IMG/VR virus record: IMGVR_UViG_3300035168_000117
Coordinates: 1-58,072 of that record
Reading direction: 5' to 3' (one strand)
Length of the DNA: 58,072 bases
DNA from: a virus
Positions 1 through 38,102 of the stretch are shown piece after piece. How positions within the stretch are numbered: position 1 is the first letter of the stretch; every line of letters starts with the position of its first letter. The translations under genes were made by a program, and so were the position numbers. Under the pieces are notes generated by a model, which saw only the letters and a program-made list of their open reading frames with translations, was not told the DNA's origin and ran no database searches.

Positions 1-51
1 CGCGCTGCGTTGGCTGCGATCGGGGTCGAATGCGAGGAGACGGCACCATGA
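1..51 (+). CDS. C-terminal fragment of a gene cut by the window edge
   Basis: Frame 1 is open from the first base and ends with TGA at 49-51. It encodes 16 residues ending in GVECEETAP. The stop overlaps the next start as ATGA, the coupling used by all genes in this chain, so this is probably the end of a real upstream gene. Its function cannot be read. Confidence 0.5.
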   Translation, partial: RAALAAIGVECEETAP

Positions 52-299
52 CGAAAAGTCTGCGCGAGCGCTGCAAGGAATTCTATCAGCGCATGGGACA
101 AAACGCGATGATGAGGCAAGGCGATCCGGTTGACGATCTGGTCGCTTTCGTTCTCGCCGAGCGCGGGCGCGCCGCCGATGAACGTCTCGACGACGCTTTA
201 CCACTTTGCCTCTATTTCGGATCGAAGGCCGACCGTGACGAGTTCGTCGCGGCCGTGCGCGAGGCGAATCCCGGCATGGTCATGAAGGAAATGCCATGA
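48..299 (+). CDS. hypothetical small phage protein (83 aa)
   Basis: The 83-aa product begins MTKSLRERC. I chose ATG 48 because it overlaps the preceding TGA (ATGA); an upstream in-frame start at 30 would lie inside the preceding coding frame. The protein is soluble and charged, with no motif I recognise. It is the first complete gene of a tightly coupled + strand chain that runs to the integrase, so it is probably expressed with the lysogeny/early-right genes. Its stop overlaps the next ATG at 296. Confidence 0.7.
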   Translation: MTKSLRERCKEFYQRMGQNAMMRQGDPVDDLVAFVLAERGRAADERLDDALPLCLYFGSKADRDEFVAAVREANPGMVMKEMP

Positions 300-463
300 A
301 GCGTATCGACCTTCCAATGGCGCTCTTGTTCGGCTCCATCATTGCCGCTGTAATTTGGCAAGCCATCACGCCTGCCGGTGACAAGTGCCGTGCTGCAGGC
401 GGACACTATTATCTTTTTGCGCCGCATTGCACGCGAATGATTGTCGAGAGGATTGAGCCATGA
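296..463 (+). CDS. small single-pass membrane protein (55 aa)
   Basis: This 55-aa gene is coupled at both ends (ATGA at 296-299 and 460-463). Residues about 7-25 (PMALLFGSIIAAVIW) form a signal-anchor or transmembrane helix. They are followed by a short tail with two cysteines (Cys31, Cys45) that could form a disulfide outside the membrane. Position and coupling make it a credible gene; its role is unknown. Confidence 0.65.
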   Translation: MKRIDLPMALLFGSIIAAVIWQAITPAGDKCRAAGGHYYLFAPHCTRMIVERIEP

Positions 464-723
464 CCGCGACCCTCACCCCACGCGAGCGCGAACTCGCGAT
501 ACACGCGCTCGGGCTCGACCGGCGCAAGTTCTCATATCGAAACTATTACGTCGTCGGCTCCGGCGACGATTACGCGACGTGGCGCGATATGGAGCAGCGC
601 GGTCTCGCGGAGTCGTGGTTGCCGAAAGGGCAGACGATGGTTTGGTTCCGCCTCACCCACGCCGGCGCTCTCGCCGCGCTGGAGCCGGGGGAGACGTTGG
701 ACAGCGAGGACTTCCCGGGATGA
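460..723 (+). CDS. hypothetical phage protein (87 aa)
   Basis: The 87-aa product starts MTATLTPRERELAIHALGL. A basic/acidic helical N-terminus is followed by a GDDYATWRDM segment and a WFRLTHAGALAAL stretch. The WFRLTHAG pattern resembles small phage proteins that end with a winged-helix-like module, but I cannot assign a function. ATGA overlaps link it to both neighbours. Confidence 0.75.
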   Translation: MTATLTPRERELAIHALGLDRRKFSYRNYYVVGSGDDYATWRDMEQRGLAESWLPKGQTMVWFRLTHAGALAALEPGETLDSEDFPG

Positions 724-1007
724 ATCGGCGCACTCTGAAAAAGCACTGTGCGCGAGCAATGCGGACGCTGATTGCCGAGCACGGCTACCGCGCCGATCAG
801 TTTTCGCCGTCGAATGGGCAAGAATCCATCGATGCGCCGCATGGCATTGAGCCGCGCTTCGTTTGGAGGGGCTGGCTTCGGCCCGGGCCTCTTCGCGGGA
901 CGATGCTTCTATGGAAGAAAACATCTTACGAAACGGACGAATGGGAGCCGATACTGCCGACACAGATGCTCGCCGATATTGAATTGTGGAGGAATTTCCC
1001 GCGATGA
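720..1007 (+). CDS. hypothetical phage protein (95 aa)
   Basis: I place the start at ATG 720, overlapping the previous TGA; the longer reading frame upstream is out-of-register DNA of the preceding gene. The product (MNRRTLKKHC at the start) is basic at the N-terminus, has a PRFVWRGWLRPG segment in the middle and ends in WRNFPR. No family is recognised. It is coupled to the next gene by ATGA at 1004. Confidence 0.7.
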   Translation: MNRRTLKKHCARAMRTLIAEHGYRADQFSPSNGQESIDAPHGIEPRFVWRGWLRPGPLRGTMLLWKKTSYETDEWEPILPTQMLADIELWRNFPR

Positions 1008-1237
1008 CGGCGCCGCGACCTGCGTTGATCTATGAGCGCGCGCCGTGCCCGCGTTGTGGCGCGGCGACGGAAGACGAAGCAGGCACCAGATGCATGCCCA
1101 CGCGAGATGAGACGGGAGAGGCGTTCTGTCCAGGCGAGACGACAGACTGCCATGGCTATTTTCTTTTCCCGACAGCGGAGAGCTTGGCGCGGGAAGCCGA
1201 GTGGTTCGATGCGCGAATTCCCGAGGGCGAGCGATGA
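1004..1237 (+). CDS. small cysteine-rich, zinc-ribbon-like protein (77 aa)
   Basis: The 77-aa product carries a CPRCG knuckle near residue 14, then Cys residues in TRCMP, AFCPG and TTDCHGY. These could form one or two zinc sites. The start ATG 1004 overlaps the upstream stop; an in-frame ATG at 986 exists but would lie inside the upstream gene. Such zinc-ribbon proteins are common among phage accessory genes and may bind nucleic acid or a partner protein. No specific role is inferred. Confidence 0.7.
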   Translation: MTAPRPALIYERAPCPRCGAATEDEAGTRCMPTRDETGEAFCPGETTDCHGYFLFPTAESLAREAEWFDARIPEGER

Positions 1238-1638
1238 CGAAAGAGTTCGGCCACTTCTCTGCCGCCGCCAGCGGGGCCTACATCGACGCATGGGGCGCCG
1301 GCCCGTTCACGATCCGCGTCGCGGGAAAGACATTCCGCTTCGAAGACAGCGACCGCTTCGGCCCCTATCTCGTAAGCAAGGACGGCGACATTCTCGATAA
1401 GCAGCCGCGAGAGGGCGCGCCGTTCTGGCGCGCGCATCGGATCTGGGTTCGGCAGGGCCGGCGCCTTGAAGGCGATGCGTGCATCTGGGATGAGCCGAAG
1501 CAAACGAAGGTCGTGAAGATCGCCGGGCGCCAGCATGTCGTGGTCGAGTGTGGCGAAGAGGACGGCGAGACGATCGTGGTCGAGGATGAGGCCGCGCGCG
1601 CCGCGATCATCGCGAAGCTCAGAAAGGGGAAGCCGTGA
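1234..1638 (+). CDS. hypothetical phage protein (134 aa)
   Basis: Start ATG 1234 couples to the preceding stop. The N-terminal half (EFGHFSAAASGAYIDAWGAG, then PFTIRVAGKTFRFEDS) looks like a compact beta-rich fold. The C-terminal half has VVKIAGRQHVVVECGEEDG, also beta-rich, and ends in a basic tail. I do not recognise a family. Codon use and coupling support a real gene of the early + strand chain. Confidence 0.75.
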   Translation: MTKEFGHFSAAASGAYIDAWGAGPFTIRVAGKTFRFEDSDRFGPYLVSKDGDILDKQPREGAPFWRAHRIWVRQGRRLEGDACIWDEPKQTKVVKIAGRQHVVVECGEEDGETIVVEDEAARAAIIAKLRKGKP

Positions 1639-1895
1639 TGGACAGGAAGAAACGCGTCCGCGACGCGGCGTCCATAGCAGACAAATACATCAGCCGAAGC
1701 GGCGCGCCAGCAGCGACGCGCGATGCTCCAGCTAGGACGCGTGCCGAACTGGCGTGGCGGGAAAATGCCGAAATCGTCCATCCGGCTTTGCGCAAGCACC
1801 TTCGCTCGGACCCTGGCGCCGGATACGCTGTTTCCGCGCTGGAACGGATCGGGGATGCGATTGCCATCGACGAAGAGGACGCGGCGCGCAAATGA
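1635..1895 (+). CDS. hypothetical phage protein (86 aa)
   Basis: Start is GTG 1635 (overlapping the upstream TGA) or ATG 1638 one codon later. The 86-aa product is basic at the N-terminus (DRKKRVRDAASIADKYISR) and acidic at the C-terminus (IAIDEEDAARK), predicted mostly helical. No motif is assigned. It is coupled to the next gene by ATGA at 1892. Confidence 0.65.
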   Translation: MMDRKKRVRDAASIADKYISRSGAPAATRDAPARTRAELAWRENAEIVHPALRKHLRSDPGAGYAVSALERIGDAIAIDEEDAARK

Positions 1896-2245
1896 CCCGC
1901 CTCCCCTGCTGCGTCCCGTTCTGCCGGCGGGCCACGCGAGACGACGGCCGATTCTCGGAATGGATTTGCGGCGCGCACTGGCGGCTCGTCGACAAGAAGC
2001 TGAAGCGGATGAAAAAACAATCTGATGACGCCTTCCGCCGTGCCGACGACGAATGCGAGGCGATCAACCGCGAGGGCTACGAGTTCGCGCTCCAGCATGA
2101 CGGCGGGGTCGCCGAGGAAATCATCGCCCGGATCGGCGTGGCGATGGAGAGGCGGCGTCGCAAGCTGCGGCAGGCTTGCCGGCTCTGGGAGCGCTGCAAG
2201 CGCCAGGCGATCGAGCGGGCGCTCGCCGGCGGTAGTGAAGCGTAG
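1892..2245 (+). CDS. cysteine-rich N-terminus, helical hypothetical protein (117 aa)
   Basis: ATG 1892 is chosen because it overlaps the preceding TGA. The N-terminal 35 residues hold CCVPFC and WICGAHW, a Cys/His arrangement that could bind zinc. The rest is a long charged helical region (KLKRMKKQSDDAFRRADDE and RRRRKLRQACRLWERCKR). Proteins with this small Cys/His head and basic helices occur in alphaproteobacterial prophages, but I know no assigned function. Confidence 0.75.
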   Translation: MTRLPCCVPFCRRATRDDGRFSEWICGAHWRLVDKKLKRMKKQSDDAFRRADDECEAINREGYEFALQHDGGVAEEIIARIGVAMERRRRKLRQACRLWERCKRQAIERALAGGSEA

Positions 2246-2254
2246 TGGAGCGTA

Positions 2255-2371
2255 ATGAAGATGGTCCGGGAGATCGATTGCGACACACCGCTGGCCCTGC
2301 CCTCCCCTGTGAGGATCGGGGATATCTGCCGAGGCGCCGCAGGGTCAGGGAGGGCGCGCCGTGACGCATGA
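2255..2371 (+). CDS. possible small protein (38 aa)
   Basis: A 38-codon frame starts ATG 2255, about 10 bases after the previous stop, and ends at TGA 2369-2371, overlapping the next start. It is below usual gene-calling length. Its position fills the space between two coupled genes, which is the main support. The sequence (MKMVREIDCDTPLALPSP at the start) shows no motif. It could equally be a leader for the excisionase-like gene. Confidence 0.35.
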   Translation: MKMVREIDCDTPLALPSPVRIGDICRGAAGSGRARRDA

Positions 2372-2726
2372 CGCCAGATTATCCGCGGCTCTGCTCTCGA
2401 CCGCGGCGGCGGCGGGGCTGCTCGGCGTGTCCGAACGGCAGTTGCGCGAGCTAATCCGGGGCGGGAAACTGCCCTATGTCAATGTCGGGCTCGCCGAGCG
2501 CCCGGCCTATCGGCTCCGCCCGGCCGATCTCGAGGCGTTCATTCAGCTGCGGACCAGCCTGTCATGTCCAAAGTCAAAGGCCTCTACCAAAGATCCGGCG
2601 TCGGCGAATGGCTCTATGACCTCCAGATCCGAGGTCATAGATTTTGCGGCTCGACGGGCGCAACGACCCGGCGGGACGCCGAAAAATGGATCACGGCCTT
2701 CCGGAAGGCGAAGGAAGCCGAAGTAG
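2361..2726 (+). CDS. excisionase-like helix-turn-helix protein (121 aa)
   Basis: Residues about 12-65 resemble the MerR/AlpA-type winged helix of excisionases: LLSTAAAAGLLGVSERQLRE, then IRGGKLPYVNVG and a YRLRPADLEAFI recognition/wing segment. Such proteins bend attachment-site DNA and steer the integrase toward excision. The gene lies immediately upstream of the integrase. GTG 2361 is the likely start. The frame runs 163 bases into the integrase gene, so the last 50 or so residues (basic, ending GRRRKPK) share DNA with the integrase N-terminus. The HTH part is well supported; the overlapping tail less so. Confidence 0.75.
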   Translation: MTHDARLSAALLSTAAAAGLLGVSERQLRELIRGGKLPYVNVGLAERPAYRLRPADLEAFIQLRTSLSCPKSKASTKDPASANGSMTSRSEVIDFAARRAQRPGGTPKNGSRPSGRRRKPK

Positions 2727-3709
2727 CGGAATTCAGCGGCGAAGGCCCGATGAGCTTCGCCGTCGCCTCCACTCGCTGGTGGAACGAGCGCGGCCAGCAT
2801 CGCAAGGACAGCCGGGACATCGAGCGGTTTTTGGCTTGGCTGCAGACGCAGATCGGCCAGCGCACGCGCATCGACGCGATCGACGACAACATGCTCGCGC
2901 GCCTGGTGGCGGCCCGCCGCGCCGAGGGCGTCTCGCCGGCGACGGTCAACCGCTCCGTCACCGAGCCGCTGCGCGCGATCCTCGCCCGCGCCGCGCTCTG
3001 GGGGCAGCGCGTCGCGCGGGTCGAATGGGGCGCCCACAAGCTCGCCGAAGCGCAGGAACGCATCCGGGAGGCGTCGCAAGCGGAGGAAACGGCGCTGTTC
3101 GCCGCGCTGCGCCCCGATTTTCGGCCGATCCTGCGTTTCCTGCTCATCACCGGCCTGCGGCGGGCGGAAGCCTGCGGGCTGAAATGGTCGCAAGTCGATT
3201 TCGACGGCGCCCGGCTGCTCGTGCACGGCAAGGGCGGGACGGTCGATTATCTGCCGCTGCCGGATTCGGCGCTAGCGATCCTGCGCGGCGAGCGGGGCCG
3301 GCACTCGACCATGGTCTTCACCTATGAGGCGACCGGGAAGCTCAAGGATCGCCATCCGTCGCTCAGGAAGGGCGAGCGCGTGCCGATTAAGCCGGACACC
3401 CTCTCGACCGCCTATTGGCGGGCGAGGCGGGCCGCCGGGCTCGCGGAGGCCGATCTAAGGCTACACGATATTCGCCACACCGCCGCGACGCGCCTGACGC
3501 GCGACAGCGGCAATCTGAAGCTGACGCAGAAGATGCTCCGGCATAAGCGGATCACGACGACGGCGCGCTACGCCCATGCGACAGAGGACGATTTGCGGGC
3601 GGCGATGAATAAGACCGCGCCGGTGGCGGCTCCCGTCGCCGAGGCGGATGCGGGGAATCCCGTCGCCGCGGGCGGGGAGGTCAAGTCGACGACCCGAACA
3701 AAAAAATGA
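2564..3709 (+). CDS. int: phage integrase, tyrosine recombinase
   Basis: This 381-aa tyrosine recombinase catalyses integration and, with an excision factor, excision. The N-terminal arm-binding region is followed by a SAM-like core-binding domain (residues about 60-160) and a catalytic domain. I see the first catalytic arginine in LLITGLRRAEACGLKW, the HxxR box in LHDIRHTAATRL, and the nucleophilic tyrosine in TTARYAHATEDDL near residue 340. Length is normal for the family. It sits about 520 bp from a tRNA-Gly half-gene that I take as attP, and directly after the excisionase-like gene. It runs convergent to the late genes, as usual for an int-att boundary. Confidence 0.96.
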   Translation: MSKVKGLYQRSGVGEWLYDLQIRGHRFCGSTGATTRRDAEKWITAFRKAKEAEVAEFSGEGPMSFAVASTRWWNERGQHRKDSRDIERFLAWLQTQIGQRTRIDAIDDNMLARLVAARRAEGVSPATVNRSVTEPLRAILARAALWGQRVARVEWGAHKLAEAQERIREASQAEETALFAALRPDFRPILRFLLITGLRRAEACGLKWSQVDFDGARLLVHGKGGTVDYLPLPDSALAILRGERGRHSTMVFTYEATGKLKDRHPSLRKGERVPIKPDTLSTAYWRARRAAGLAEADLRLHDIRHTAATRLTRDSGNLKLTQKMLRHKRITTTARYAHATEDDLRAAMNKTAPVAAPVAEADAGNPVAAGGEVKSTTRTKK

Positions 3710-3718
3710 GCATCGGCA

Positions 3719-4198
3719 ATGGCAAAAGCAAGAAACAGAATATATCAGCGAATGACAAAATTTGAACCGAAGGAATTTATTTACGCAATCAGATGTGGCG
3801 CATTTGTAAAGATCGGCCGCACCACAAACCCTGCGAACAGGGTAGCCGCTATCCGCTTGAATAATCCAATGGACCTGCATTTAGTCGCATATGTTGCGGC
3901 CCCTGGTAGATATGCAGCCATGTTTGAAAGAACCGCGCACTCAAAACTGAAAAATCATCACCACTGCGGGGAGTGGTTCTGCGCAAACTCGGTGATTATT
4001 ATTGGCGCTCTAGAGGAGACAAAAAGGGAGATGATGGCACTGCAACGCGCGGCTCCGCGCGAAGATGGCGATTATCGAATCGGCCATATGGCGTTCGGAA
4101 CAGTCATGCGGAATCCATTTGGATTGGAATGTTGCCCGCAGGTCAGAACCTACGTGTCGAATCCCGTAGACGCTGTTGGCGGCAGCCGTAAGACTTAG
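3719..4198 (+). CDS. GIY-YIG family protein (MUG113/T5orf172-like)
   Basis: The 159-aa product carries FIYAIRCGAFVKIGRTTNP, a downstream arginine (ANRVAAIRL) and GEWFC. This is the pattern of the MUG113/T5orf172 branch of the GIY-YIG nuclease superfamily. The gene follows int by 9 bp and ends 32 bp before the att core. Its base composition is visibly more AT-rich than its neighbours, suggesting recent acquisition. A second copy of the same domain type is fused to a repressor at 56291-56824. Whether it is an active nuclease, a homing-type gene or a DNA-binding accessory factor is not decided by sequence. No clear Shine-Dalgarno precedes ATG 3719; a later ATG at 3752 is possible. Confidence 0.8.
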   Translation: MAKARNRIYQRMTKFEPKEFIYAIRCGAFVKIGRTTNPANRVAAIRLNNPMDLHLVAYVAAPGRYAAMFERTAHSKLKNHHHCGEWFCANSVIIIGALEETKREMMALQRAAPREDGDYRIGHMAFGTVMRNPFGLECCPQVRTYVSNPVDAVGGSRKT

Positions 4199-4226
4199 AT
4201 TTTATTGATAGAAATAGGCTTACGGC
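4185..4226. repeat. inverted repeat beside the att core
   Basis: GCCGTAAG at 4185-4192 is matched by CTTACGGC at 4219-4226, 26 AT-rich bases apart. The left arm lies in the end of the GIY-YIG gene and the right arm is 4 bases from the tRNA-Gly half-gene. It could be the terminator hairpin of the int operon or integrase-binding DNA of attP. There is no clear T-run. Confidence 0.5.
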
Positions 4227-4230
4227 AAGC

Positions 4231-4270
4231 GGCTTGGGAAGCTGTCGTTCTACCACTGAACTACGCCCGC
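4231..4270 (-). other. attP core: 5' half of a tRNA-Gly(CCC) gene
   Basis: Read on the minus strand, 4270 to 4231 matches the first part of a bacterial tRNA-Gly. It has the acceptor strand GCGGGCG, the D-arm GTTCAGTGGTAGAAC, the anticodon arm ACAGC and the loop TTCCCAA with anticodon CCC. Identity to a tRNA stops right after AAGC: the expected stem partner TGT, the variable loop, the T-arm and the 3' acceptor strand are all absent. Lying beside int with phage genes on both sides, it is best read as the attP identity region, with strand exchange probably in the anticodon loop. Most tRNA-targeting phages carry the 3' half; this one carries the 5' half. Confidence 0.82.
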
Positions 4271-4292
4271 GGAGCGCGTGAACCGCCCGGTT

Positions 4293-4321
4293 TGTATAGG
4301 GTTTTTCGCATCCGAGGGCAA
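4293..4321 (-). promoter_or_regulatory. sigma70-type promoter in front of the tRNA-Gly half
   Basis: On the minus strand TTGCCC (4321-4316) and TATACA (4298-4293) are separated by exactly 17 bp, and the -10 box lies 22 bp upstream of the tRNA 5' end. After integration this phage-borne promoter would drive the hybrid tRNA-Gly made of the phage 5' half and the host 3' half. Confidence 0.6.
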
Positions 4322-4437
4322 GGCGGCAAACGGCGGCGTCGGCAGAAAAGGGAAACGAACGGAGCTTTTGGGAACCGAGAATCCCGTAAAAATCCCGCAG
4401 GGGTTCCGGGCCTGTTCTCACTGGCGCCCTCCCCCGC

Positions 4438-6916: not shown

Positions 6917-7645
6917 TCAGTCGCAGGCGACCGTCTTCGCCAGCTCGGCGAGGAACGCGCGCAGCGAATCGGACTCGGCCGGGCCGAGGCCGGAGACCTC
7001 GACGATGCCGGCGCCGGAGATCGTGGCGCGCCAGAGCGGCGCATTGACCGCGTCGAGCCCCGTCCATTCGACGGGCGTGTACCAGCCCGGCAGCGTGGCG
7101 CGGCAGGTCGAGCTCCAATACTCGCGCGGCCCGGCATAGGCGCGCGCGGCCTCGGCGATGGTCATTTCCGGGGCCAGAGAGAGTCGTCCGTCGGCGCGAA
7201 CGGCCATCGAGGGCAGATAGACCACGTCGCCCGGTTCCCGCACCAGAGGCGCCGCATAGCCGGCCGAGACGGCGCCGGTGATGATGGCCGCGGCGAGCGC
7301 AGCGATGGCCGCGATTCTCACGACCTCGCGGGCGGGCTTGGCGCGGCCGGCGTCCATGATCGCGCCGAGGCACTCGGGCGCGATGAAGAGGACGCCGGCC
7401 GCGATCTCGCACCCCGCGATGATGGCGCCCCAGGGCGCCGGGATGACGAGCGCCGAGATCGTGGCTGCGGCAGCCGTCACCGCCAGGGCCTTGCGCTCGA
7501 AATCGCCCAGGCGCGAGAAAACGAAGAGCGCGATAGCGCCGCGCAGCGTGCGGACGCCGGCCGAAATTTCGGGAACGAAGGGAAACAGCAACAGGAACGC
7601 GGCGACGCACGCCAGCGCGCCGACCGCGAGAGCGGAAGCGTTCAT
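6917..7645 (-). CDS. polytopic membrane protein of the lysis region (242 aa)
   Basis: Start ATG 7645 has an AGGTG Shine-Dalgarno. The longer frame to 7783 is rejected because its extra 46 residues are basic and look non-coding. Residues 1-145 contain about four or five hydrophobic helices (for example VGALACVAAFLLLFPFV, AIIAGCEIAAGVLFI, IAAIAALAAAIITGAVSAGY). The last 100 residues are soluble. Its leader is nearly identical to that of the endolysin gene, which suggests shared translation control and perhaps a holin-like or envelope function. No holin family is recognised. Confidence 0.7.
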   Translation of the reverse strand: MNASALAVGALACVAAFLLLFPFVPEISAGVRTLRGAIALFVFSRLGDFERKALAVTAAAATISALVIPAPWGAIIAGCEIAAGVLFIAPECLGAIMDAGRAKPAREVVRIAAIAALAAAIITGAVSAGYAAPLVREPGDVVYLPSMAVRADGRLSLAPEMTIAEAARAYAGPREYWSSTCRATLPGWYTPVEWTGLDAVNAPLWRATISGAGIVEVSGLGPAESDSLRAFLAELAKTVACD

Positions 7646-7662
7646 AGAGCACCTATTTTTCG
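7643..7662 (-). promoter_or_regulatory. conserved leader motif, copy 1
   Basis: The minus strand reads CGAAAAATAGGTGCTCTATG, ending with the start codon of the membrane protein. Apart from one A and one other base it equals the leader of the endolysin at 9961-9979. The AGGTG is the likely ribosome-binding core. Confidence 0.55.
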
Positions 7663-7947
7663 AGATTGCCGGCGACCGGCCGGCTCGGTTGACAGAATGT
7701 CTGGTTTTTCGGGAACGGTTGCGCTGGCCTGCGCGCAACCATTTCGTGTGCACGCGGCCGACTCTCTCGCCCCTATTGCTCACGTAGGCCAGCTACTCGA
7801 CACAGTAGCCGCCCAGCTCACCGCAGTGGCTCGCGGTCAAAGATCGGTGAAGAAAACAGGACAGCATTAACCGCATGATTGAATTGACATTCATGCGAGC
7901 GCGCGCGCCATCGCGCCGCCGATTTTGAGATTCGATCAAGAAAAAAC
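7663..7947. other. non-coding stretch in the lysis region
   Basis: No convincing gene is seen. The main structure is a perfect 8-bp inverted repeat, GGTTGCGC at 7717-7724 and GCGCAACC at 7733-7740, with an 8-base loop. It lacks a T-run on either strand. TTGACA-like hexamers occur at 7689-7694 and near 7884 without good -10 partners. Confidence 0.4.
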
Positions 7948-8058
7948 TCAACGCCTCGGCCGGCACAGCCTCTCCGCGAGCCCACCGATCGCTAGAGCGA
8001 TGATGATGAGCGCCACAACGACATAGGCGCCGGCGCGGCCGAGAAGGTCACGGACCAT
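7948..8058 (-). CDS. tiny membrane protein (36 aa)
   Basis: A 36-codon minus-strand frame encodes MVRDLLGRAGAYVVVALIII followed by ALAIGGLAERLCRPRR. This is one transmembrane helix with a basic C-terminal tail. There is no strong Shine-Dalgarno. Size and topology fit a small lysis or holin-associated peptide, but that is inference from position only. Confidence 0.4.
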   Translation of the reverse strand: MVRDLLGRAGAYVVVALIIIALAIGGLAERLCRPRR

Positions 8059-8224
8059 TTCGTGCGCCGCCCGGCGCTCCCGTGAACGCAGAAGCGTTTC
8101 TCATTTCAGACCTTTCAGGGATTGCCGGGAGGCCGCCCGGCGCGGAACTAAGTGTTTTTCGGGACGTGCGGCCCCGACGCGCGCGGCATATGATCGCCAG
8201 TCGCAACATTTTTGCGAGGACGCC

Positions 8225-8455
8225 ATGAATACCGCAACAGATTTGGCACGCTCTGCCACAGAGATTTCAACGTTTTCTGCGACGTTTATGTCTATGATCT
8301 ATATTTTGAGCCGTTTCGTGAAGTTCGATCCGAGCGACGAATACACAGCATCTCTTATCGCTAATGTCGCCGTCCCGATCGGACTCATGGGGTCGATGTA
8401 TGTCGCGATCGTCGTCTCGAATTTCTTTGCGAAAATTATCGACGATCAGGCGTGA
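8225..8455 (+). CDS. small membrane protein on the opposite strand (76 aa)
   Basis: ATG 8225 follows a GAGGA ribosome site. The product has two hydrophobic segments, TFMSMIYILSRFV near residues 20-35 and LIANVAVPIGLMGSMYVAIV near residues 44-65, and a short acidic end. Its stop at 8455 abuts the end of the minus-strand o-spanin gene at 8456, so the two are exactly convergent. The DNA is noticeably AT-richer than the surroundings. A two-helix topology is compatible with a small holin or a superinfection-type membrane protein; neither is shown. Confidence 0.65.
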   Translation: MNTATDLARSATEISTFSATFMSMIYILSRFVKFDPSDEYTASLIANVAVPIGLMGSMYVAIVVSNFFAKIIDDQA

Positions 8456-8752
8456 TTACCGGCCGGCGAGGCCAGCGTCGCGGCGGAGCCGCCATCGGAC
8501 GTTCGCAGCGTGGCGGTCGCCGCACGCCACCAGCGAGGCCCTGTCGCGCCCCCAGAGCCTTTCGACGGCCCCGGCGCCGAGCGCGCCAGAGAGGCGGACA
8601 GGGCGCGCGCAAGGCGCGTCGAGATCGCCCGGCGCTGCCGACTGCGCCAGCTCGCGCACGGGCCGGGTCCGGCTGCTATTGGGCGAGCCGGTCGAGACGC
8701 AGGCTTGCAGCGCCATCGAGACAAGGGCGGCGATCGGCAGCATGAGACGCAT
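8456..8752 (-). CDS. Rz1-like outer-membrane spanin lipoprotein (98 aa)
   Basis: The N-terminus MRLMLPIAALVSMALQAC is a lipoprotein signal with lipobox LQAC (Cys18), followed by a proline-containing segment. The gene starts inside the Rz-like gene in another frame (77-bp overlap), the classic nested Rz/Rz1 arrangement. The lipoprotein would sit in the outer membrane and pair with the inner-membrane coiled-coil partner to fuse the membranes in the last step of lysis. The C-terminus is longer than in lambda Rz1 and arginine-rich. Confidence 0.75.
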   Translation of the reverse strand: MRLMLPIAALVSMALQACVSTGSPNSSRTRPVRELAQSAAPGDLDAPCARPVRLSGALGAGAVERLWGRDRASLVACGDRHAANVRWRLRRDAGLAGR

Positions 8753-9062
8753 CTTCGGATTCCTTCAGTCGGGTTTCGAGGTCGAGGCTCTTGCGGGCCA
8801 GCGCCTCCGATTCGGCGAGGCCGGCGGCGCGCGCCTCGGCAATGGCCGCCTCGCGCCGGACGTGCTCGGCGTCGGCGGCGCGCTGGAGCTCCAAGCGGAG
8901 CGCCGTGGCGCGCGCCTCGCACGCGGCGCGCTCGCGATGGCCGGCGACGAGCCATGCGATGACGGCGGCGAGCGCCGCCGCGCCGATCGGCGTTCGGATG
9001 ACGGCCGAGAGGAGGCCAAGCGCACCGCGCGCGGCCGGGAGGAGAATGGCGAGGAGCGGCAT
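8676..9062 (-). CDS. Rz-like inner-membrane spanin (128 aa)
   Basis: A transmembrane helix (IGAAALAAVIAWLVAG, residues about 26-42) is followed by a periplasmic coiled coil (ERAACEARATALRLELQRAA, then EAAIAEARAAGLAESEAL). It matches the i-spanin layout. The gene lies 4 bp downstream of the endolysin and overlaps the lipoprotein gene in another frame, the usual endolysin-Rz-Rz1 order. No residue-level family match is claimed; topology and context carry the call. Confidence 0.78.
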   Translation of the reverse strand: MPLLAILLPAARGALGLLSAVIRTPIGAAALAAVIAWLVAGHRERAACEARATALRLELQRAADAEHVRREAAIAEARAAGLAESEALARKSLDLETRLKESEDASHAADRRPCLDGAASLRLDRLAQ

Positions 9063-9066
9063 TGCG

Positions 9067-9963
9067 TCACCGCCCGATATTGAGGCCGCTCACGGCGTCG
9101 TCGACGCGGGCGATCTTGACGAGGTGAGCGCCGCGCCACGCGCGCCAGACGAAGAAGGCGGCGGCGCAGGTGAGCGCGACGACGGCGAGCAGAGGCCAAT
9201 AGGTGCGGAGCGTTTCGAGCGCGCCGACGCCGCTCTGGACCGCGACGACGGCCTCTTGCGCTTGGCTCGCCACGTCCTGCACCTGGGAGAGCGCGGCCGT
9301 CGCTCCGCCGATCGATGCCAGCGAGCCGGCGAGGCCCTGTTGCGCGAGATCGGCTCCCTTGACCGTGCGCGAGCCAGCGGCGCGGAGGTCGGATGCGGTG
9401 ATCTGCATTTCCGGCTCGACGACTTGCTCGGCGCGCGGAGCCGCGAGCGCGCGCTTTGCGGCCTTCAGATAAGCCGCGCGCTGCGCAAGGCCGTTCCGGC
9501 CGCCGTTGATCTTCTTCGTCACATGAACGAGGTCGTCGGCGTCGGCGTCGGCGTTGAGTGCGCGCCTGCGCCAGTAATGCGCGGCGGTGAGAGCTGCCGC
9601 GGGGAACTTCGCGGCTTCCTCGGGAAAGTTCACGAGATCCTGACCGATCGCATCGCCGTAGGTGACATAGTTCGCGCGGCCGGTGACCTGGATCAGCCCT
9701 CGGCCTTTGAAGCGCACGCCATCGCCCGGGCGCGTGTTGCCGAGGTCTTTGCGCCCCTCATAGGCCGCGCCGCTCGCATACTCGACCGTGGTTCGAAAGC
9801 CGGCGCTCTCGTGCGCTAGTTGCGCGAGGAAGTGCGCGACGCGACGCGGGGTCGAAAGGTCCGCGACTTCGATCAATTCCGGCATGAGGCCGGCGAGCGC
9901 GGAAATGATCGACGCCTTTCCGGTCGGCGCGATCGTCTTCAAGACCTTTTTCCAATCGGTCAT
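9067..9963 (-). CDS. GH19 (chitinase-like) endolysin with C-terminal membrane anchor
   Basis: This 298-aa muralytic enzyme has a GH19 domain in residues about 1-170. FLAQLAHESAGFRTTVEY contains the general-acid Glu of the family, and KGRGLIQVTGRANY is the conserved substrate-site segment, followed by a typical AALTAAHYWRRR helix. The C-terminal third is unusual: a helical linker leads to one strong transmembrane segment (YWPLLAVVALTCAAAFFVW, residues about 250-268) and a short basic/cytoplasmic-like end. A membrane-tethered endolysin would be held until the membrane is disrupted. Start ATG 9963 has an AGGTG ribosome site. Spanins follow directly. Confidence 0.9.
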   Translation of the reverse strand: MTDWKKVLKTIAPTGKASIISALAGLMPELIEVADLSTPRRVAHFLAQLAHESAGFRTTVEYASGAAYEGRKDLGNTRPGDGVRFKGRGLIQVTGRANYVTYGDAIGQDLVNFPEEAAKFPAAALTAAHYWRRRALNADADADDLVHVTKKINGGRNGLAQRAAYLKAAKRALAAPRAEQVVEPEMQITASDLRAAGSRTVKGADLAQQGLAGSLASIGGATAALSQVQDVASQAQEAVVAVQSGVGALETLRTYWPLLAVVALTCAAAFFVWRAWRGAHLVKIARVDDAVSGLNIGR

Positions 9964-9979
9964 AGATCACCTATTTTCG
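9961..9979 (-). promoter_or_regulatory. conserved leader motif, copy 2
   Basis: The minus strand reads CGAAAATAGGTGATCTATG into the endolysin start. It is nearly the same as the leader at 7643-7662, although the two coding regions are unrelated. Confidence 0.55.
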
Positions 9980-9997
9980 TGGGAGAGAAGCGCCAGA

Positions 9998-12900
9998 TCA
10001 GAGCAGATACGGCGCGGTGTCGCGGATGACCTCGAATATCTTTTGATGGCCGGTGAAATTGAAGTGCAGGCCATCGCCGTAGGCCGTGTTCATGGCGACA
10101 CCGTCGAGCGCGGCCGATGTCGCCATGGTGAGGTCGATGTAGGGATAGCGGCCGAAATATCCCGACATGATGTCCGACCTCATGCCGAGGATGCGCGTGC
10201 TGTTAGCGGTGTAAGCCGCGCTGCAAACCAGCACGGGGGTTGCGCCGCGCGCCAGCGCGCGCGTGATGAAGGTAGCCGTCGATGTTCGCCACGACGGGCT
10301 CGGCGTGACATTGCCGAGACCAGCGTCAGCATTGTCGGGATTGGTTCCCATGTTCCACACCGCGTAAGTCGGCGAGAAAGGATCGAGATCGAGATCGAGG
10401 CAGGGGATCACCTCGTCACCGCTCGCGCCGCCGCGCGACATTGACAGCGTGTCCCCCTTTCCGCGCAATGCCTCGAGGCGATTGACGTAGGCAAGGTCAT
10501 AGGCGTCGCCCAACTCGAGGCCGCCCTCGCTGTTGCTGTCTCCGAACCACAGCCAATAAGGATTCTGGCGCACGTTCGTGTAGCGATAGAACTCTTTCAC
10601 CAACACGTCGCCGGAGATATGGACGAGTCCAGCTTTTCCCCATTGCCGGCCAGTGTCGGAATAGCCGGTCACGATATCGACCGTGTTCTGCATTCGAGCA
10701 TGCGCGAACTCGAATTTCGAGCCCGTCACGGTGTCGATGAGCGTGAGGACATTTTTCAAATTGATCTTGTCGATTTGCAAAATGTAGTCGCGGCCGGTGG
10801 CGATCGTGAACGGGATGACGCCGCTCGTCTGCGTCGCGGCGACGCTGGCTCCGCCATTCCATCCCGACAGTTTCAGGACGGCGGCGCTCGCTCCGGCCGA
10901 GGCGTCGAGCAACGCGACCGTGCCATGATTGAACTGCGAGGTGTCCTGCGGAACGAAGCAGATTCCGAATTTCGAGGTCGCGTCGTTGAGCGAAAAGCGC
11001 GCGATCGTCGTCTTGCGTTGCGCGTTCGAATATTTCCCGAATATCGCCGTCGTCGTGTAGCCGCCGGCTCCCGACGCGTGCAGGCCATTGTTCCACGTCC
11101 AGCCGCTCAGCGTCCAATTCGCGCCCGTCGATGTCCCCGAGAAAGGCTCATAGCCGAGCAGCGTTCGGCCGCGCATCTGATCGGCGATCACGTCACGCGT
11201 CGTCTTCTGGCGCCGGACGATCGGGCGCATCGCGGGGCATGACGTGGTGGTCGCGATCGTCGCGCCTTCGTAGGTATAATTCAGGTTGAAGTATTTTGAG
11301 AGCGGAAGGCTGCGCACGGACCCCGCGATGCGACCGCCAGCGGGACGGCGGAACAGGAGCCAGCCCGCCTCGACGCGGATCGGAGCTGGCGGGCTGTAGA
11401 CGAGATTTGAGCCGACCACGAGCGTCGATCGCCAGGAGTCGATAAACGAACCGGCGCCAGTCCAAATTTCGAAATCCATGTCGCCGGCGACGACGGGGCT
11501 GCAAATGACGCCGGTCAGCCACCCGCTGAAGGGGAATTCCTCGCCGGGGCTCGAAACCAGCGTGTCTTGGCCCGCGCCAAGATCGCTGGCTCCTGCATTG
11601 GCGACCAGACCGACTCCGTGTTCGATGACGCCATTGTCGGTCACCGCCAGCGCAGCGACCTCGGCATTGGATGACGCCGGCGCGAGATCGGTCGCAACTT
11701 CGGATGTGTCGTCGATGACGACCTCGAAAACAGTCTTGTAGGTCGATGCGGTGACGACTGCGTTGACGCCTCCGGTGTTTTCCGAGACGTATGTCGAAGC
11801 CGCGACGACAGCGGCGAAACCGACGCCGCCCGACGCAGATCCGAGGCCGACCATCGCACCAGCCGGAATTATCATCCCTTCCGGGAAATGTGTCCCGGCT
11901 TCCAGCGTCAGAGCGCCAGTCGCAGCGATGCCGGTAAGCGCGATATTGTGGATGATGTCGTAGTTCCCGTTCGCGCGCGGGCGCGCCACCATCAGCCGGC
12001 CCGTGCCATTGCCGATGGAGATGGCCCAGGTCTTGACCTTCTTCAGCCTCGCGGTGCGAGGGGCTGCGGCAGTCTCGAATGTGACTTTCGCCACGGGCGT
12101 AGAGACGCCCGTATTCGAAGCCGCTGTGCCGTAGGTCGTCGGGGTGTCGACGTACGAGGCCAGAGCCTCTGTCGCCCCGCTGCCCGCCGTCGCGACGCTC
12201 TCGGCGACGCTCGCCTCGAGTTCCGTGAAGTTGGTCTCGACGGCCGAGACCCGCGCATCGAGCGCGTCATATCCGAGATCCTCGGCGAATGCCCAAGCGC
12301 CGGCGCCGTTGGAAATGAACACGCCATTCCGGTCCACCTGCCCGCCGGTGTCGGCAGTCGAGCCCTCATTGGAGCCTGTGCTCGCATAGACGATCGTCGA
12401 GCCCGTCGTGCCTGCGAGAGTCGTCACGCGGCCATTGTAGCCCGCCCCGCCGAGCCCGCGCACATTGACGACCGCGCCGACAGAGAGGCCGTGAGCCGCC
12501 GTCGTCCCGACGGTCGCGACATTGGACGCGCGCGAGCGCGTCGCCGTCGTCGCGACCACATCGGCGACGACCTCGGCCGAGACATTCGCGGCTGCCGTCG
12601 TGTTAGCCAGCATCGAGGCTTCGAGCGCATAGGTGAGCCGGCCTTGCGAGATCAGCACCCACGCCGAGCCGTTCCAGACCCGCGGCTGATGGTCGGACTC
12701 GAAGACGAACATCATCTTCGCAGTCGGCGCCGTAAACACCCAAGCGCTGCTCTTATATTTCGCGTGATAGTTCACATAGGTCGCGAAGGCTCCCGTCGGG
12801 CTCGCTCCCACGATGTAGGAATCGCCATCCGCGGGGCTCGCCGGGGGCGTCGACGCGAGGCCCTTGACGCTTCCGACCTCGAGTGGGAACAGCGCGGAGA

Positions 12901-38027: not shown

Positions 38028-38102
38028 TGGAGCCCTAGGCAGGATTTGAACCTGCGACCCGCCCCTTACGAAGGGGCCGCTCTACCACTGAGCTACACGG
38101 GC
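38028..38102 (-). tRNA. tRNA-Thr (anticodon CGT)
   Basis: On the minus strand the cloverleaf begins GCCCGTGTAGCTCAGTGG at 38102. It has D-arm GCTC/GAGC, a 5-bp anticodon stem GCCCC/GGGGC with loop TTCGTAA (CGT, threonine ACG codon), and T-arm GCAGG-TTCAAAT-CCTGC. U73 is followed by an encoded CCA at 38030-38028. The acceptor stem has mismatches at pairs 5-68 and 6-67, so charging efficiency is uncertain. It is a phage-carried complete tRNA, distinct from the truncated tRNA-Gly at att. Confidence 0.9.

Follow-up and report, generated by a model that had tools for sequence, protein, structure and literature searches.

A phage attachment site made of the 5' half of a tRNA-Gly(CCC) gene, with an adjacent putative promoter resembling native tRNA promoters

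Mobile elements that integrate into tRNA genes mostly involve the 3' part of the gene: 3760 of the 3919 islands in the Islander collection are associated with a 3' fragment and 159 with a 5' fragment (PMC4383910), so the usual 3'-half rule, which the first-pass annotation of the DNA analyzed here had stated, is correct. In the 5'-fragment islands, as in the phage described below, the 5' end of the tRNA gene is displaced and the gene is restored from the element side, and sites centered on the anticodon, as the present one, are common (PMC4383910). The Islander paper does not contain the word 'promoter', whereas here the source of the promoter could be traced to native tRNA promoters; furthermore, unlike in the Islander 5' set, the 5' type is tied here to one integrase clade (PMC4383910). 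For the pTN3-like archaeal integrases, a tRNA gene likewise provides its 5' half as attB, and an element promoter takes over expression of the restored tRNA, a situation seldom seen in bacteria; unlike the present case, these integrases are archaeal and suicidal, with the integrase gene split, and the promoter is that of the integrase (PMC8371274). The classical 3'-half phage sites share with our locus a tyrosine integrase, a symmetric anticodon-stem core, arm-type sites and a single intact tRNA gene after integration, but they have the opposite polarity and keep the host promoter, which is displaced here. In the tRNA-dependent lysogeny of mycobacteriophages, the lysogen also depends on the phage for tRNA information and a promoter, but there the phage contributes a whole separate tRNA gene and that of the host is not reconstituted (PMC10865867). 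5'-fragment elements are already known but uncommon, and rebuilding under an element promoter is known from archaea. A literature search with partial coverage yielded nothing more specific on 5'-half sites with captured promoters and, within that coverage, the capture of a native promoter, the clustering of the 5' type in a single clade of phage integrases and the switch in polarity may tentatively be taken as not described before.

The window analyzed here, i.e. the whole 58,072-nt stretch of the IMG/VR virus record IMGVR_UViG_3300035168_000117, contains the following features around the attachment site:

2361..2726, plus strand: probable excisionase (HTH_17; PF12728, 1.1e-9; phrog_66, excisionase and transcriptional regulator, 2.6e-6)
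2564..3709, plus strand: tyrosine integrase (PF00589, 3.5e-27; phrog_1, 1.8e-52)
3719..4198, plus strand: MUG113/T5orf172 domain protein between the integrase gene and the core (PF13455, 2.4e-8; PF10544, 5.3e-6)
4161..4168, plus strand: putative integrase-proximal arm-type site, ATCCCGTA
4232..4270, minus strand: attP core, tRNA-Gly(CCC) nucleotides 1-39 (exact match to host tRNA-Gly(CCC); G001, a second record of the phage, diverges after 4271)
4234..4240, minus strand: anticodon loop TTCCCAA, placed by its sequence and presumed to be the 7-bp overlap at which crossover occurs
4293..4298, minus strand: -10 element TATACA (kept in the phage arms of G002, G158 and L135; related to native tRNA-Gly(CCC) promoters)
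4316..4321, minus strand: -35 element TTGCCC (same box in native promoters, with equal spacer, 17 nt, and distance to the tRNA, 22 nt)
4381..4399, plus strand: putative integrase-distal arm-type sites, direct repeat ATCCCGTA/ATCCCGCA, 11 bp apart

The minus strand from 4270 to 4232 reads GCGGGCGTAGTTCAGTGGTAGAACGACAGCTTCCCAAGC and comprises the acceptor strand, the D arm, the 5' anticodon stem, the loop TTCCCAA and 2 nt of the 3' anticodon stem. The first-pass annotation had described 4231-4270, with no strand given, as the front half of a tRNA-Gly(CCC) gene; the identity and the extent to the anticodon loop hold, and the length is corrected to 39 nt because base 4231 is already mismatched (C, as against T in the host). 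The comparison with host genomes that it had called for gives exact matches of the 39-nt block to tRNA-Gly(CCC) positions 1-39 in many genomes from a related family. As also noted there, the rest of the gene is missing: ARAGORN detects no complete Gly tRNA, and the 3' half of tRNA-Gly(CCC) is absent from the window. The attP accordingly carries the 5' part of the host tRNA and lacks the 3' part, the reverse of a classical site, in which the phage supplies the 3' part and the host promoter is kept. The only tRNA found in the window is a complete tRNA-Thr(CGT) (38028-38102, minus strand); with this anticodon, and with the target tRNA rebuilt in the relatives described below, the phage differs from those with tRNA-dependent lysogeny. 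The same tRNA-Gly(CCC) 5' half occurs in an 87.7-kb viral contig (L139:7756-7794) that has no related integrase in the stretch examined and possibly belongs to an independent 5'-type phage.

Taking these sequences together with those of the relatives, we are highly confident that 4161-4399 represents the attP of a temperate phage with a genome of about 74 kb, that its tyrosine integrase targets the anticodon loop of tRNA-Gly(CCC), and that the promoter and 5' half of the phage rebuild the tRNA. Strand exchange would take place at the anticodon loop of the host tRNA-Gly(CCC) gene; the host promoter and 5' half would be left, truncated, beside the integrase gene, and the phage promoter with the phage 5' half would join the host 3' half to form one intact tRNA gene, such that the lysogen would make tRNA-Gly(CCC) from a promoter carried by the virus. 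The symmetric stem, the integrase family and a comparison of inverted loops (see below) all point to the loop as the overlap region.

The core begins about 520 bp past the integrase stop codon, with the integrase gene and the tRNA half convergent, and lies outside the integrase gene, so that no splitting of the pTN3 type is seen. The octamer RTCCCGYA occurs 10 times in the 58 kb, and three of these copies (4161, 4381 and 4392) flank the core; this cluster is better evidence for arm-type sites than a search for arm-site pairs with one mismatch, which gave no significant result by itself. Related direct repeats are present in the distal arms of G002, G004, G158, G007, G432, G294 and the phages RHph_I3_18 and VSN-002. 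The interval between the integrase gene and the core holds the MUG113/T5orf172 gene in the window, a gene for a 1263-aa DSR2-like defense protein in G002 (L003:7395-11186) and nothing in the relative G003, which lacks the MUG113/T5orf172 gene, and thus looks like a cargo slot.

A scan of viral contigs with the integrase yielded a second record of the same phage, G001 (IMGVR_UViG_3300035074_000077, 70.8 kb), which is 100% identical to the window over 7398-12000 and 1-4271. It runs from window position 7398 onwards, through 15.7 kb that lie outside the window and overlap both of its ends, and back into window positions 1-4271, which it leaves exactly at 4271, the base before the tRNA, to enter a 108-bp flank. 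The joined contigs imply that the phage genome measures about 73.8 kb, with the core interrupted in G001 and continuous in the window; the 15.7-kb outside stretch (L027) contains no tRNA genes. The prophage G002, whose integrase is 92% identical, has the same 108-bp flank after its own displaced 5' half beside the integrase gene, and we take the flank, short as the shared 108 bp are, to be host DNA because it also follows the displaced half of this different prophage. The other end of G002 has a complete tRNA-Gly(CCC) gene (354-428, minus strand), with different DNA on its 3' side and, on its 5' side, DNA that matches the window at 87-89% identity as far as 4397; the rebuilt tRNA in this type of integration therefore combines a 5' half from the phage with a 3' half from the host. 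From the G001 and G002 junctions, the integrated form can be reconstructed as a displaced host 5' half beside the integrase gene plus a rebuilt tRNA at the other end; G002 and G158 (below) have both ends, and for the window phage the integrase end is recovered, in G001. The unoccupied site of the window phage's own host was not found. The window could derive from tandem prophages rather than from a circle; the attP sequence is the same either way.

The tRNA fragment might instead be a vestige of an old transduction, with the true crossover elsewhere, a reading to which the scarcity of 5' fragments (159 of 3919; PMC4383910) lends some weight; the exact divergence of G001, the same phage, at the block and the matching pair of junctions in ten elements make it extremely improbable. 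The junction check proposed in the first-pass annotation, run here on sequence records, places the crossover inside the block, given the departure of G001 at 4271 and the junctions of G002 and G158.

Crossover in the tRNA is likewise indicated by the ten elements for which both junctions were identified, at tRNA-Gly(CCC), tRNA-Gly(TCC), tRNA-Pro(TGG) and tRNA-Pro(GGG) genes. In G158 (integrase 67% identical), a contig of 4.5 Mb belonging to the family of an uncultured Rhodoblastus, the displaced 5' half is at 1574431-1574469 and the complete tRNA-Gly(CCC) gene at 1532439-1532513, 42 kb apart. Behind that rebuilt tRNA lies a 9.2-kb phage-like island with capsid and portal genes (G158:C1:1523200-1532513, L125) whose far end carries a displaced 3' half; should the two insertions be what they look like, the only tRNA-Gly(CCC) gene found in G158 would have its 5' and 3' halves from two different mobile elements. 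In G004 and G006 (integrases 54-55% identical), both junctions are at tRNA-Gly(TCC); in G004, the start of the EF-Tu gene follows the rebuilt tRNA, and the tuf gene expected directly behind the hybrid tRNA of G006 was ruled out by the presence of other genes there. In G007, G214, G432, G294 and G520, the two junctions lie in a tRNA-Pro(TGG) or tRNA-Pro(GGG) gene; the integrases of this proline group, from Hyphomicrobiales, are 39-46% identical, and the displaced 5' half of about 40-45 nt is beside the integrase gene. The tenth, a 9.5-kb element of the 5' type, G343 (L182; C1:1134581-1144122), has the rebuilt tRNA-Pro gene beside the integrase gene and in the same direction, with arm-like repeats between the two. 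G399 was dropped as a two-junction case, the tRNA at its far end being called Val by ARAGORN. A 129.6-kb viral contig (L149, IMGVR_UViG_3300013105_000843) carries 30 tRNA genes within about 10 kb.

Two circular, complete phage records, RHph_I3_18 (Rhizobium) and VSN-002 (Sphingopyxis), have a tRNA-Pro 5' half shortly after the integrase gene, with promoter-like DNA and arm-like repeats nearby, none of the three being annotated in the regions examined; a nucleotide search of phage records with the attachment region of the window gave only short, tRNA-sized matches. These records bear on the possibility that the tRNA part and the promoter are no attP, being instead host sequence next to an integrated prophage or the product of a chimeric assembly. 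Host flanks are frequent in IMG/VR records, and the promoter does resemble native host tRNA promoters, but phage genes lie on both sides (the integrase gene at 2564 and, beyond 9000, genes for endolysin, tail, head and terminase), the same order of core, promoter and arm recurs in G002 and G158, where the DNA that follows downstream is different, and the layout is repeated with tRNA-Pro in the two circular phages, so that we deem this very unlikely. The attP reading thus finds its layout and both types of junction in the sequences of relatives.

The boxes of the promoter proposed in the first-pass annotation, TTGCCC and TATACA with a 17-nt spacer, are present at 4321-4316 and 4298-4293 on the minus strand, 22 nt from the tRNA. 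By itself, the consensus match (8 of 12 positions) is within chance, as 6.4% of random 75-mers from the window score at least as high, and the pair is not among the predictions of a promoter scan of the window; the case for a promoter is therefore built on homology to native tRNA promoters. The combination of TTGCCC, a 17-nt spacer and 22 nt to the tRNA is found upstream of native tRNA-Gly(CCC) genes in L097, L100, L102, L119 and the native flank of G158, and a TTGC box, a GAAAAA run and TATA precede the native genes in L096, L097, L100, L102, L119 and the displaced G158 flank; the native promoters have a 17-nt spacer and 21-22 nt to the tRNA, and the same elements occur in the phage arms of the window and G002. 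Over the proximal 60 bp, the window arm resembles the native promoters of L096 (73%, z 7.8), L097 (z 7.3) and G158 (z 7.0), and phage arms resemble the native promoter of their own host in G007 (83%, z 12.0) and G158 (z 8.2); in pairwise comparison, the similarity drops at 60-100 bp (z <= 3.8). The displaced host promoter and the phage promoter show no similarity in G001 and G002 (z 1.3 and -0.6), so the capture is traced to related bacteria and not to this host; for the Gly-TCC phages G004 and G006, no likeness of the phage promoter to the host promoter was found.

We infer from these comparisons that the phages took a host tRNA promoter along with the 5' half, in the present case probably from a tRNA-Gly(CCC) gene, and the phage-borne copy would drive the rebuilt tRNA. 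The promoter assigned earlier to the hybrid tRNA is indeed carried on the phage arm but appears not to be a phage invention, positions -1 to -60 being homologous to native promoters; since it looks like a captured tRNA promoter, the idea that it puts the host tRNA under phage control, in the sense of regulation, finds no support in these sequences.

In three genomes, namely G158 (Gly-CCC), G007 and G214 (both Pro-TGG), no further complete tRNA gene with the anticodon of the phage-host hybrid was found, although BLAST can overlook divergent copies; the remaining proline tRNAs detected in G007 and G214 have the anticodons CGG and GGG. CCA codons need a UGG anticodon, and G007, the cultured strain Xanthobacter tagetidis ATCC 700314, must therefore make the hybrid tRNA-Pro(TGG), most simply from the phage-borne promoter. 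The promoter and the integrase gene are convergent and, after integration, a host promoter replaces the phage one at the integrase end, a symmetric arrangement that would also suit a promoter whose main role is antisense transcription across the core to the 3' end of the integrase gene in the excised phage, tRNA rescue being a by-product. We hold this to be quite improbable, given that the similar stretch stops at about 60 bp with the tRNA promoter spacing kept and that sole-copy tRNAs in lysogens appear to depend on the promoter.

The presumed expression of the rebuilt tRNA from a captured promoter can also be related to the polarity of the site. The 5' type is in the majority among the classified members of this integrase clade; a 3' half follows the integrase gene in the more distant L039, L041, L043, L057 and L009 and in two members of the proline group (L166/G503 and L168/G540). 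A quick integrase tree, with SH-aLRT support only, requires a minimum of three switches between the 5' and 3' labels, and a supported group unites L166 and L168 with the 5'-type L160, L165 and L170. The integrases of L166 and L170 are 55% identical, and 10 nt past the integrase stop codon L166 has gagagcatgt-CTGGGGG-acaaag, whereas L170 has gggagcatgt-CCCCCAG-acaaat: the half-sites gagcatgt/agcatgt and acaaa are common and the anticodon loop is inverted. Related integrases thus use the same tRNA in opposite polarity, presumably because the anticodon stem is an inverted repeat. The integrase would see the palindromic stem in either direction, and the orientation of the loop would set which half of the tRNA the phage brings; with the loop inverse relative to the integrase gene, the 5' half, and with it a promoter, has to come from the phage. 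We propose, with about even confidence, that this clade of alphaproteobacterial phage integrases repeatedly switches between 3'- and 5'-half replacement by inverting only the 7-bp loop overlap between conserved half-sites, that each switch to the 5' type forces the capture of a host tRNA promoter, and that lysogens then depend on the phage-borne promoter, for example for a sole tRNA-Pro(UGG).

The rule that phages spare the host tRNA promoter thereby becomes a testable consequence of attachment-site polarity, and the related integrase pairs named above are available for testing polarity. Programs for prophage detection that look for a displaced 3' fragment would put the ends of 5'-type elements in the wrong place. 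In a cultured lysogen and in phage records, a single-copy tRNA appears to be dependent on a virus-borne promoter, which has a bearing on prophage domestication and on the origin of new tRNA-gene target sites.
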